Assembly: GCA_021802745.1 (NCBI GenBank)
Contig: JAJZRK010000003.1
Span: forward strand, 1-42,028
Direction of reading: 5' to 3'
DNA: 42,028 bases
From: a bacterium
GTDB taxonomy: Bacteria; Gemmatimonadota; Gemmatimonadetes; Gemmatimonadales; Gemmatimonadaceae
The translations under genes were made by a program, and so were the position numbers. The notes below the pieces were generated by a model that was given only the letters and a program-made list of their open reading frames with translations, ran no database searches and had not been told where the DNA came from. Below, one piece after another: positions 7,196 to 28,517 of the stretch (its first letter is position 1; every line of letters begins with the position of its first letter).

Positions 7196-9895
7196 CTACC
7201 AGTCGTACGTCAAGCGCGTGTAGATGAAGCGCCCGTTGTAGCCGAACGGCGTGATGCCGCCGTACGGGAAGATGCCAAAGAAGTCCGTGTTCGCGATGTT
7301 CTGCGTCGGGTACTTGTCGAGCACGTTGTCCGCGCCCACCGTCCACTTCACCTTCCACGGCGTCTGCCAGCTGAGGCTCACGTCATTGATCCACGTGGGT
7401 TTGTACGTGTTGTCCAGCGACCCGTTCGTCGCCGTGCCGCGCGAGATGACCTCGCCAAACCGCTGTCCGCGCAGCAGCGCGCTCCACGACTTCCGCGACC
7501 AGTCCAGCGACGTCACGATGTTGTTCTTGGGCTGGCCCACCTCGATGCGGCCTTGCTCGACGCGCCCGAAGAGCGCCTCGGACTGCGTGGACAGCTCAGG
7601 CGGCGTCGGCGTGACGTACGTCACCTCGTTACTGGTACCGTTGTAGCCGCCCGTCACGCGTACCGTTCCCGCGTTTCCAAGGTCGAGCCCATAGTTCGCC
7701 ACGATGTCGATGCCGTGGGTCTTGGTGTCAATGGCATTGGTGAAGTACCGCCCGCCCGACACGCCCGTCAGCCCCTTCGACGCCAGCAGCGCGTTCACCT
7801 GCGCGCCGGTGAAGTTCTCCGAGAAGACGATGCGGTCCTTGATGGTGATCTGATAGTAGTCCACCGTGAACGACAGATTCTTGGTCGGTTCGGCGGCGAA
7901 GCCGGCGCTGAGGTTGGTGGACTTCTCCGGCTTCAGGTCCTTCGCGCCCAGCACGCGGGCGATCGGGTCGTTCACCGGGAAGGTGCGCACCTCGAACGGC
8001 ACGCCGTTGATGAAGTTCGTCGCGGTGGACGAGAAGAACGACTGGTGCAGCGAGGGCGCGCGGAAGCCCGTGCTCACGGCGCCGCGCAAGTTGAAGCCCT
8101 TCGCCACCTTCAGGCGCGTGGCCAGCTTGCCCGTCGTGGTGGAGCCGAAGTCGCTGTAGTGCTCCGCGCGCGCCGCGCCCGACAGCAGCCACGCGTCGGT
8201 GATGTCGCTCTCGACGTCCGCGTAGGCCGCGACGTTCGACCGGGAGTGCGTGCCGGCGTCGTTGGGACGGAAGCCCGGGAAGACCTGCGCTCCGATGGCC
8301 GGCTGCTTGCCGGCATTCGGGCCATCGAGGATCTTCACGCCGCCATCCTTGTACGAGTTCGGCTCGCCAGCCGTGATCTCGAAGGCGTCGTTGCGGAACT
8401 CGGCGCCCACGCCCACGCGCACCGGACGGCCCGGATTGAAGTCCCGATTCAGGTCAAGGTTCGTCGTCAACTGACGGAACGCCAGCGCCCCCGCATCGAA
8501 CGACGTCGGACTCTGCGCGCCCATGGACGTGTTCAGCGAGTTCTTCACGGCAAAGCCAAAACGATTGCCGCCGTACACGGTGCTCAGGTCGTACTTCCAC
8601 TTGCCGGCATCGCCCTTGATGCCAACCGTGCCCGAAATGTCGGTGATGTCGGAGGCGATGATGGGCAGGAATCCGTCGGGCGCAATGGCGCGCACGGTGC
8701 GGTCGTCCAGCGACCGGCGCCAGAAGCCCGCCGCCTCACCGCGGCGCTCGCCGTAGCCGCCGAAGGCGTAGATCTCGCCGTTCACCGCGTCCCACGGCCG
8801 ACCAAAGTTGGCGAAGGCGGTGACGCCGTTCGTCGAGGCGTCGCCGAGGCGATGGTTGATCTGGTTGTTGTAGCGCGGATCGGAGTTCTTGGGGTTGCCC
8901 GTCAGGTATTGCAGGCGCGTGTCGGGCAGGGAGCGGTTCGTCCACCCGTGCTGGTTGGTCTCGGCGCCGAGCGTCAGGTAACCCGCCTCCAGCGGGGCAT
9001 TCCACGTCACGTTGCCCTTCCACAGCTTGCCGTCCCAGAGCGTCTTGCTCACCAGCGCCGACGGGTTCTGCCGCGGCGGGTCAAAGTGCGTCATGTTGGT
9101 GCCGGCCGTGAACTGCGCCTCGTTGGGGGAGTTGGCCTTCAGCACGATGTTGATTACGCCGGCGATCGCGTCGGAGCCGTACTGCGCCGAGGCGCCGTCG
9201 CGCAGCACCTCGATGCGTTCGATCATCGAGGCGGGAATCGCATTGAGGTCCACCGCGGCCTGGCCGCGCCCGATGGACCCGTTCACGTTCACCAGCGCAC
9301 TCGTGTGCCGGCGCTTGCCGTTGATCAGCACGAGCACCTGGTCGGCGCCGAGGCCGCGGAGGGTCGCCGGGCGCACGTGGTCGGTGCCGTCGCCGATGCT
9401 CATGCGCGGAAAGTTGAACGACGGCGCGACCGCCTGGATCATCTGCGCCGTCTCGGAGCGCCCCGTCGCCGAGATGTCGGCCGCCGGCAGCACGTCAATG
9501 GGCGCCGGGGCGTCCACCACCGTGCGTTCCTCGCTTCGGGAGCCGATCACCGCCACCGCCGAGAGCGCCGCGGCGGCGCGCGTGAGCGTGAAGTTCTGCG
9601 TCACGGTCTGGCCGGCGCGAATCGTCACGGAGTCCCTGACGAGCGCGTAGCCGATGAGCCGGGCGCGCAGTTCGTAGCGGCCGGGGCGCAGGTTGATGCG
9701 ATACGTGCCGTCGTTCTTCGCGATGGCGCCAAACTGCGTGCCGGCAACGGCCACCGACGCACCAGCGATGGGTTCTCCGGTGGCCGTCACGATCTTGCCG
9801 GTCACCACGCCGAGGGTCGTCTGCCCAGCGAGCACTCCGCTGAACGCCGATGTGAACACCAATGCCGCCGCGAGCCGGGTGATGACACGCACCAT
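7196..9895 (-). CDS. TonB-dependent outer-membrane receptor
   Basis: An 899-residue outer-membrane protein. A Sec signal (about 1-23, ending VLAGQ) is followed by a carboxypeptidase-regulatory-like domain (about 28-105; VTGKIVTATGEPIAGASVAV). A plug domain follows (about 120-250; LRGLGADQVLVLINGKRRH and IERIEVLRDGASAQYGSDAI). A long beta barrel ends YTRLTYDW, with an aromatic C-terminal residue as needed for BAM recognition. It should import a scarce ligand using TonB energy. No substrate clue or partner (SusD, ABC importer) lies nearby. The start is ATG at 9895 with a strong AGGAGGT upstream. Confidence 0.95.
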   Translation of the reverse strand: MVRVITRLAAALVFTSAFSGVLAGQTTLGVVTGKIVTATGEPIAGASVAVAGTQFGAIAKNDGTYRINLRPGRYELRARLIGYALVRDSVTIRAGQTVTQNFTLTRAAAALSAVAVIGSRSEERTVVDAPAPIDVLPAADISATGRSETAQMIQAVAPSFNFPRMSIGDGTDHVRPATLRGLGADQVLVLINGKRRHTSALVNVNGSIGRGQAAVDLNAIPASMIERIEVLRDGASAQYGSDAIAGVINIVLKANSPNEAQFTAGTNMTHFDPPRQNPSALVSKTLWDGKLWKGNVTWNAPLEAGYLTLGAETNQHGWTNRSLPDTRLQYLTGNPKNSDPRYNNQINHRLGDASTNGVTAFANFGRPWDAVNGEIYAFGGYGERRGEAAGFWRRSLDDRTVRAIAPDGFLPIIASDITDISGTVGIKGDAGKWKYDLSTVYGGNRFGFAVKNSLNTSMGAQSPTSFDAGALAFRQLTTNLDLNRDFNPGRPVRVGVGAEFRNDAFEITAGEPNSYKDGGVKILDGPNAGKQPAIGAQVFPGFRPNDAGTHSRSNVAAYADVESDITDAWLLSGAARAEHYSDFGSTTTGKLATRLKVAKGFNLRGAVSTGFRAPSLHQSFFSSTATNFINGVPFEVRTFPVNDPIARVLGAKDLKPEKSTNLSAGFAAEPTKNLSFTVDYYQITIKDRIVFSENFTGAQVNALLASKGLTGVSGGRYFTNAIDTKTHGIDIVANYGLDLGNAGTVRVTGGYNGTSNEVTYVTPTPPELSTQSEALFGRVEQGRIEVGQPKNNIVTSLDWSRKSWSALLRGQRFGEVISRGTATNGSLDNTYKPTWINDVSLSWQTPWKVKWTVGADNVLDKYPTQNIANTDFFGIFPYGGITPFGYNGRFIYTRLTYDW

Positions 9896-26728: not shown

Positions 26729-27805
26729 CTAGTCCCCGAAGGAAATTCCGATCCGGCGCGCCGTGCGAACGATATCGTGACTCGGGTCCACGCGCTTGAG
26801 CCGCTGCAGCGCGTCCACGATCGGAATCGGCACGATGTGCGGTGTCTGGAGGGCCACCATGTGCCCCCATTTGGCGTTCGCCACAGCCTCCGTGGCCGCG
26901 CCGCCGAAGCGGGTGGCCAGCAGGCGGTCGTACCCGGTGGGCATGCCGCCGCGCTGCAGGTGACCCAGCACCAGCGACCGGCACTCCTTGCCGGTGCGCG
27001 CCTGGATGGCCCTGGCCAGGCGATCGGCCACGCCCCCCACCCGCCGCGCCTGTCCGGGCAGCGACTCGCCGAGCGTCCCCTGTTCCCCCTCGAACTGCAC
27101 GCCCTCGGCGACGACGACGACGGCGAACTTCTTGCCCTGCGCGTCGCGCTGCATGATGTGCGCGCACACGTTCTCGATATCCCACGCGATCTCGGGGATG
27201 AGGATCACGTGCGCCTGGCCCGACACGCCGGAATGCAGCGCGATGAAGCCGCAGTCGCGCCCCATCACTTCGAGCACGAGCACGCGGTCATGGCTGGATG
27301 CCGTCGTGTGGAGCTTGTCAATCGCTTCCATCGCCGTTGTCACGGCGGTGTCGAAGCCGAAGGTCGTGATCGTTCCGCTGACGTCGTTGTCAATCGTCTT
27401 CGGCACGCCGACGATGCGCGCCCCCTTCTCGAAGAGCCTCTGCGCAATGGCGAGCGAGCCGTCGCCGCCGATCGTGATGAACGCCTCGATGCCGAGGTTG
27501 CGCGCGTTGTCCATCAGCTCGTCGGAGCGGTCCACCTCGATGTAGGAGCCATCGGGCTGCTTGACGGGATAGTGGAAGGGGTTGCCGCGGTTGGTGGTGC
27601 GCAGGATGGTGCCGCCGAGGTGGGCGATGCCGCGCACCGACTCGGCGGTGAGCGGGATGACCTCGTCCTCGCCCAGCAGGCCCATGTAGCCGCGCTTGAT
27701 GCCCAGTACATGCCAGCCGCGGTCAATGGCCGACATGACGGCCGCGCGGATGACGGCATTGAGGCCGGGGGCGTCCCCGCCGCCCGTGGAGATGGCGATT
27801 CTCAT
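26729..27805 (-). CDS. pfkA: 6-phosphofructokinase, mixed ATP/PPi signature
   Basis: A 358-residue glycolytic enzyme phosphorylating fructose 6-phosphate. STGGGDAPGLNAVIR (6-20) binds the phosphate donor. TIGGDGSL (111-118) places Gly at 116, the position that is Gly in ATP-dependent and Asp in PPi-dependent enzymes. VPKTIDND (134-141) has K136, which is Gly in E. coli ATP-PFK and Lys in PPi-PFK. MGRDCGF and HLQRGGMPTGYDR complete the site. The Gly/Lys combination is that of the mixed group III family, probably ATP-dependent. The ATG at 27805 overlaps the stop of the selenoprotein-W-like gene as ATGA, so the two are coupled. Confidence 0.95.
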   Translation of the reverse strand: MRIAISTGGGDAPGLNAVIRAAVMSAIDRGWHVLGIKRGYMGLLGEDEVIPLTAESVRGIAHLGGTILRTTNRGNPFHYPVKQPDGSYIEVDRSDELMDNARNLGIEAFITIGGDGSLAIAQRLFEKGARIVGVPKTIDNDVSGTITTFGFDTAVTTAMEAIDKLHTTASSHDRVLVLEVMGRDCGFIALHSGVSGQAHVILIPEIAWDIENVCAHIMQRDAQGKKFAVVVVAEGVQFEGEQGTLGESLPGQARRVGGVADRLARAIQARTGKECRSLVLGHLQRGGMPTGYDRLLATRFGGAATEAVANAKWGHMVALQTPHIVPIPIVDALQRLKRVDPSHDIVRTARRIGISFGD

Positions 27806-28038
27806 GGCTTCGGTTGGTGAGATCGGATCAGGTTCAGCACCTCGCCCGGCAGGGCGTGGCGGCCAAGCCGCGACTTCTCGAAGACCGCCCGGCCATCCAC
27901 GGACACCTCGAAGCGTCCGCCGCCGCTGGGCTGCAGCGACACGTCCGCTCCGGGAAACTGCTCACGAATCGCGTCCGCCAGACTGGCGGCCCGGGGTTCG
28001 TAGTTTCAAACGACGCAGAACTCGATATTGACGTGCAT
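27802..28038 (-). CDS. SelW-like (Rdx family) selenoprotein with in-frame TGA (Sec11)
   Basis: A 78-residue thioredoxin-like Rdx/SelW protein if TGA at 28008-28006 is read as selenocysteine. The N-terminus MHVNIEFCVVUNYEPRAASL gives C8-V-V-U11, the CxxU redox motif of this family, followed by the family-typical NYxPRAA. After the TGA the frame stays open and family-like: EQFPGADVSLQPSGGGRFEV, VDGRAVFEKSRLGRHALPGE. It starts at ATG 28038 with AGGAGG 4 nt upstream. It ends at TGA 27804-27802, overlapping the pfkA start by 4 nt. A hairpin meeting the bacterial SECIS rules lies 22 nt after the TGA. SelW proteins act in thiol redox. Conventional gene calling would miss it. A TGA-disrupted Cys homologue is the alternative. 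Confidence 0.75.
27975..27989 (-). promoter_or_regulatory. Candidate bacterial SECIS element
   Basis: On the minus strand CCGCCA-GTC-TGGCGG forms a perfect 6-bp stem with a 3-nt loop that begins with G. The loop lies 22 nt after the in-frame TGA. Bacterial SECIS elements are known to need a short apical loop with G in its first two positions, about 16-37 nt after the UGA; this hairpin meets all three conditions. Confidence 0.65.
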
Positions 28039-28114
28039 CGCGCCTCCTGTGCCAAGCAATCTAGGGGCCGCGCCCGGGTGTGCGAAGCCTTTACGGCGCC
28101 GGGTCGCCGCGCCC

Positions 28115-28360
28115 CTACGGTGTCGGAATGCCACTCGACGCGGCCAGCTGTCGCATCAACGTGTCCTGCTTCGCGCTCACCCTGGCGAGCGAATCCACCG
28201 TGGTGGACAGGACAGCCATCTGGTCCTGCATGGCGATGATGGCGTCGGACATCTGCGCGAGCTGCTCGGCGACGGCGGCATCGGCGGCGGGCGAGCGGCA
28301 GCCCGCGGCGAGGACGAGCAACGCAAGCGCCGGGAAGCGGCGCAGTCCGGCATGACGCAT
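28115..28360 (-). CDS. Small coiled-coil lipoprotein
   Basis: An 81-residue protein. A type II signal (MRHAGLRRFPALALLVLAAG) ends in the lipobox LAAGC with C21 as the lipidation site. The mature part is a single heptad-patterned helix (AEQLAQMSDAIIAMQDQMAV, LSTTVDSLARVSAKQDTLMR), likely a coiled coil that trimerises or dimerises. It resembles Lpp- or YbgF-N-terminus-like envelope proteins only in layout. The ATG at 28360 has GGAG 7-8 nt upstream. It lies 76 nt upstream of the SelW-like gene on the same strand and is divergent from the pseudopilin. Confidence 0.75.
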   Translation of the reverse strand: MRHAGLRRFPALALLVLAAGCRSPAADAAVAEQLAQMSDAIIAMQDQMAVLSTTVDSLARVSAKQDTLMRQLAASSGIPTP

Positions 28361-28517
28361 GGCGGATCTCCGGGACGACGCGTGGGTGCCGCGCGCCGCA
28401 TGCAATCGGGGGCTTCTGCTGGCGTTCGATTGGTGATGCACACCGGCGCGATACCTCCAAGATGCGCGTACGGCGCGCCCCGCGCACGTGCGCCGACCCG
28501 CCACCTGGAGGCCCTGC

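Follow-up and report, generated by a model that had tools for sequence, protein, structure and literature searches.

A probable SelW-like selenoprotein gene beside pfkA in Gemmatimonadota

Background

Selenoproteins of the SelW-like family are already known from bacteria, as a sequence-only reading of the DNA studied here had noted. Excerpted tables list 10 of them in PMC1794560 and 427 in the GOS data of PMC2398784, and few homologues with cysteine (Cys) in place of selenocysteine (Sec) are reported from Sec-using organisms (PMC1794560, as excerpted). In the excerpts of PMC1794560, PMC2398784, PMC1088965 and PMC9312934, these proteins share several properties with the gene described below, namely membership of the same family (PF10262), a CxxU motif, a hairpin downstream of the Sec codon and a G in the apical loop of that hairpin. 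The same excerpts name neither Gemmatimonadota nor a linkage to pfkA, and the role of bacterial SelW is called unclear in that of PMC1088965. Such genes have also escaped annotation, as is reported for SelW genes of epsilonproteobacteria in the excerpt of PMC4607533.

For Gemmatimonadota the record is sparse. The term "Gemmatimonad" is absent from the main texts of PMC5029168, PMC13188914, PMC12013277, PMC2398784, PMC5330540 and PMC9312934, and the excerpt of PMC3281104 mentions Gemmatimonadetes solely for their SELO homologues. In the open-licence literature, supplements aside, titles and the beginnings of abstracts yielded no report of a SelW-like selenoprotein in this phylum; similarly, no report of selenocysteine or selenoprotein W in an operon with phosphofructokinase was found in the open-licence literature. 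Here we describe an rdx (selW-like) gene from a Gemmatimonadota bacterium, which is a new addition to the bacterial SelW-like selenoproteins already known, and compare it with its relatives in the same class.

Results

The window, i.e. the whole stretch of DNA analysed, comprises 42,028 nucleotides (contig JAJZRK010000003.1). The features of interest are the following:

28043..28048, minus strand: AGGAGG, Shine-Dalgarno-like motif of rdx, upstream of ATG 28038
27802..28038, minus strand: rdx/selW-like gene of 78 codons and a stop, codon 11 being an in-frame TGA
28006..28017, minus strand: putative CxxU redox motif Cys8-Val-Val-Sec11
28006..28008, minus strand: putative Sec codon TGA (codon 11), the U of CVVU; TGA in 28 of 28 sequences, window included
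27963..28002, minus strand: bSECIS-like hairpin with its inner helix at 27991..27973 and a GUC apical loop at 27983..27981 (closing pair A-U)
26729..27805, minus strand: pfkA (6-phosphofructokinase), with a 4-nt overlap between its ATG and the stop of rdx

The earlier reading had pointed to a minus-strand frame running from ATG 28038 to 27802, preceded by AGGAGG and overlapping pfkA by 4 nt, and the sequence bears out every one of these elements, the terminal TGA of rdx (27804..27802) overlapping the ATG of pfkA (27805..27803) as ATGA. Translation of the frame agrees with it in meeting a single in-frame TGA (28008..28006) and no other interruption; with UGA read as Sec, the product would be 78 amino acids long, beginning MHVNIEFCVVUNYEPRAASLADAIREQF. 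This product matches the Pfam family Rdx (PF10262) with 69.8 bits (cut-off 22.6) over residues 2-72 and profile positions 1-73 of 74, homology being present on either side of the TGA as had been claimed, and on this sequence evidence the match is far beyond chance. Likewise, the TGA falls exactly at the proposed CxxU/CxxC position: codon 11 completes CVVU and aligns with CxxC homologues, and positions 8 and 11 do not vary across a 25-row alignment that renders Sec as C and includes two Cys proteins. The product also exceeds the curated cut-off of NCBIfam NF041051, SelTWH_Campy (90.7 versus 88 bits), although that model is named for relatives in Campylobacter, a member of another phylum, and so slim a margin is not proof of an equivalog. 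The downstream product is a phosphofructokinase (337.9 bits, Pfam).

Just upstream of rdx, a small open reading frame (28115-28360, minus strand) has a lipoprotein-like start (LLVLAAGC) and no Pfam match. Neither a consensus promoter nor a terminator was found at 27780-28400, and the window has no Rfam match at gathering scores.

A structural model built from the 25-row alignment has a mean pLDDT of 91.2, and its top PDB matches are the SelW-related entries 2fa8 and 2obk, with thioredoxins ranking lower. Query-normalised TM-scores reach 0.86-0.90 for the listed chains of 2fa8, 2obk, 3dex and 2p0g, and identity is 23-39% across the top 21 structural matches. The rdx product is thus predicted to have the thioredoxin-like fold of these bacterial Rdx structures, of which 2fa8 has Cys in place of Sec. 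In the model, CxxU begins where the first strand (E2-8) ends and extends into the loop that leads to the first helix (H14-27). The loop between first strand and first helix is where thioredoxin-like proteins carry their redox motif.

Relatives were gathered by a PfkA search of a one-genome-per-species collection, which returned 56 loci. We used 46 of them (L001-L045 and L054; at least 71% identity), 44 titled Gemmatimonadota at one rank or another and two (L001 and L025) titled only as bacterium; the other ten (L046-L053, L055 and L056), with 48-55% identity and none titled Gemmatimonadota, were dropped. The closest relative (L001) is 96% identical in PfkA, and two syntenic blocks exceeding 4 kb match the window at 82-84% DNA identity. 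A relative of rdx adjoins pfkA in 27 of the 46 loci, and its codon 11 is TGA in all 27. Whole-genome searches gave the same division, an Rdx match with one internal TGA occurring in each of 27 genomes and none in the remaining 19. One genome (G036) holds a second Rdx-like match with its own in-frame TGA (C151:14099-14251; 22.2 bits against the cut-off of 22.6), perhaps a divergent paralogue.

At class level, 181 of 394 sampled genomes have an Rdx match. Among the matches listed, 30 loci were fetched, 25 of which have the TGA with similar flanks and five no in-frame stop. Three of these five (L097, L098 and L107) encode distant CxxC proteins sharing 32-38% with the window protein, and the other two (L099 and L100) do not align to it at E 0.001. 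A Cys-coding form of the motif, searched as a degenerate pattern, had no match in the 394 class genomes; the same pattern with TGA, as a positive control, matched 23 of the 27 gene-bearing genomes, and the pattern is a fair though incomplete probe. TGC or TGT, which the earlier reading had expected in close relatives if the TGA were an error or a fresh mutation, was looked for, and TGA was found in all 27 near relatives. The earlier reading had also called such a gene, coupled to phosphofructokinase, unexpected in this lineage; the gene is no oddity of one strain but an old class trait, often lying directly before pfkA.

Downstream of the TGA, the loop G26 and the C24-G30 pair of the bSECIS-like hairpin are invariant over 53 sequences. 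Codons 12-26 diverge less at synonymous sites (pS 0.366) than codons 2-10 (0.568) or codons 27-70 (0.611). All 28 near sequences have AGT or GGT as the loop codon, although in their pfkA genes AGT accounts for 5.9% of Ser and GGT for 8.7% of Gly codons. At the 25 distant loci the loop codon is GGT (12), AGT (7), AGG (5) or CGG (1), i.e. the G is retained and the U variable. The loop resembles the SECIS of E. coli fdhF in that GGTCTG occurs in fdhF and at the loop of nine of the 28 near sequences; unlike it, the other 19 read AGTCTG or AGTTTG. The loop of the window lies about 3 nt further from the UGA than in E. coli fdhF, given what we take to be the position of the fdhF Sec codon.

The inner helix is 93.5% paired over 52 distinct rows. 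Over 53 rows it has 13 two-sided changed cells, against a mean of 2.7 in shuffled alignments (reached by none of 500 shuffles); these changes fall in only two of the eight pairs, a spread that 91 of 500 shuffles reach. Sliding the helix by -1 gives more two-sided cells than the true helix (18, in one pair), yet only 41.8% pairing. In the 28-row set covariation is weak (four two-sided cells), RNAalifold predicts a different short structure without a compensated pair, and six single-sequence z-scores lie between -0.86 and -2.82. Since the covariation results are mixed, synonymous constraint and the fixed loop codon outweigh them as evidence for a SECIS.

The earlier reading had proposed that a lack of Sec machinery would speak against it, and the relatives were examined on this point. 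Of the 27 gene-bearing genomes, 26 have at least one of selA, selB, selC and selD over cut-off, compared with none of the 19 others. The individual genes divide in the same way: SelA in 24, SelB in 23, SelD in 22 and selC, i.e. tRNA-Sec(tca), in 21 of the 27, each against 0 of 19 (one-sided Fisher P 4e-10 to 4e-8 for selA, selB and selC; all counts ignore kinship). The selC search scored 72 of several hundred first-look candidates per genome, and rescoring with 111 candidates gave nothing new, either in the six gene-bearing genomes that lack selC or in the 19 others. Eight Rfam tRNA-Sec matches over cut-off in genomes without rdx are all tRNA-Ser according to ARAGORN and were discounted.

The exceptions are few, and they are metagenome-assembled genomes (MAGs). 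G003 carries the TGA gene without selA, selB, selC or selD reaching cut-off; in G008 the only Sec gene is a SelD fragment at a contig end; and G001, the closest relative, carries selA and selB while lacking a true selC and any selD above cut-off. Together, selC and selD are missing from five genomes (G001, G003, G022, G045 and G046). As the two genes are neighbours in relatives (e.g. G015:C95, selD 8225-9145 and selC 9262-9354), loss of a single contig is the likely cause of their joint absence. For the genome of the window itself, these relatives suggest that it, too, has the Sec machinery.

Across the class, a SelA match (E 0.001) accompanies 171 of the 181 Rdx-bearing genomes, six of these matches being weak (E 3e-16 to 8e-4); one of the ten genomes without it (G075) has a CxxC Rdx. 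Conversely, 119 of the 394 genomes have a SelA match and no Rdx match, and in these other selenoproteins probably keep the Sec trait. Two further genes carry candidate Sec codons. One in-frame TGA is found in selD of eight of the 22 genomes over cut-off (G002, G004, G005, G006, G007, G035, G036 and G044), so that, to go by its sequence, SelD is probably a selenoprotein too in some members of the lineage. Matches resembling formate dehydrogenase alpha, with one in-frame TGA, occur in 14 of the 27 rdx-bearing genomes, two of them weak (164-166 bits). We accordingly rejected the idea that rdx is the sole reason for the Sec trait, given the TGAs in selD and formate dehydrogenase alpha and the 119 genomes with SelA alone. 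Of these three genes, rdx alone has retained its TGA in all near relatives in which the gene is present.

With regard to gene order, rdx precedes a co-directional pfkA in 26 of the 27 near loci, the two being divergent in L007, and a 4-nt overlap is present in 13 of 28 (window included). At the distant TGA loci, pfkA (PfkA 55-61% identity) follows directly downstream on the same strand in at least 14 of 25, a lower bound because some flanks are short (in L112 about 300 bases downstream); this recurrence indicates that the linkage is old. The two genes are probably expressed together, co-transcription being the reading suggested by this arrangement.

Discussion

We regard rdx as almost certainly a genuine bacterial Rdx/SelW selenoprotein gene. 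Ribosomes would initiate at ATG 28038; SelB with Sec-tRNA-Sec, bound to the hairpin just 3' of the UGA, would insert selenocysteine at codon 11; and translation would proceed past the UGA to 27802. The product would be a 78-residue protein of thioredoxin-like fold whose CxxU supplies a selenol-thiol pair; it would most likely act as a small oxidoreductase and is probably co-expressed with PfkA. Sec insertion is proposed here from the codon, the hairpin and the Sec genes of relatives.

Three other accounts of the TGA have to be weighed. Taken alone, the window has a stop codon at a position compatible with Cys, which could reflect a fresh nonsense mutation or a misread TGC or TGT in a pseudogene or faulty sequence. 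A codon fixed in all 27 relatives, which come from separate assemblies, and in 25 more distant loci is not expected of an error, nor is purifying selection on both sides of it (pN/pS 0.44 before the TGA, 0.17 and 0.37 after), and the pattern for a Cys form had no match in the 394 genomes; we therefore hold this account to be exceedingly improbable. Public records would rather suggest that translation starts downstream of the TGA and yields a short protein, for 16 of 17 database relatives (P0002 and P0004-P0018) are only 43-65 amino acids long, and the nine of them whose sequences were inspected (P0002 and P0004-P0011) all begin after the TGA. Against such a start, which we consider very unlikely, stand the position of AGGAGG at the upstream ATG and the purifying selection on codons 2-10; moreover, the short form would be missing both CxxU and the initial strand of the predicted fold. 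The short records starting past the TGA are better read as the sign that the full-length gene has been overlooked in annotation, as the sequence-only reading had supposed.

The remaining database protein of this group (P0003) shows Trp where the others have TGA, which may reflect either a pipeline that renders TGA as Trp or a real TGG. It could also hint that UGA is read here as another amino acid, such as Trp, through a code change or a suppressor tRNA. TGA is, however, the terminal stop of rdx itself in 20 of 28 sequences and is thus not generally reassigned, while presence of the gene tracks the Sec machinery and the position matches that of CxxC homologues, so that reassignment appears no more credible to us than sequence error. 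The selenoprotein reading of rdx is the one that we retain.

Besides co-expression, the overlap of rdx and pfkA makes it possible that, where it occurs (13 of 28), translation of pfkA depends on prior read-through of the Sec codon; if true, phosphofructokinase, and through it glycolytic flux, would be tuned by the supply of selenium. We consider this dependence improbable. Anti-Shine-Dalgarno energies were compared at 46 pfkA starts (13 overlapping rdx, 14 non-overlapping and 19 without rdx; window included, L007 left out), and overlapping starts differed neither from non-overlapping ones (Mann-Whitney P 0.70) nor from those without rdx (P 0.86). A Shine-Dalgarno motif is missing at 45 of the 47 pfkA starts tabulated, with or without rdx, and the two that have it (L009 and L011) are overlapping cases. 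Selenium-dependent coupling through loss of pfkA's own Shine-Dalgarno motif is thus unsupported, energies being alike and the motif scarce in all groups. Furthermore, recoding is put at 30-40% in vivo in the excerpt of PMC4513850, which would, we infer, make it costly for pfkA to rely strictly on read-through.

Conclusions

A SelW-like selenoprotein can now be placed in much of one Gemmatimonadota class, and small selenoproteins of this type are truncated in public records. The old neighbourhood of rdx and pfkA offers a lead on the role of SelW in bacteria and on whether selenium status bears on sugar metabolism.
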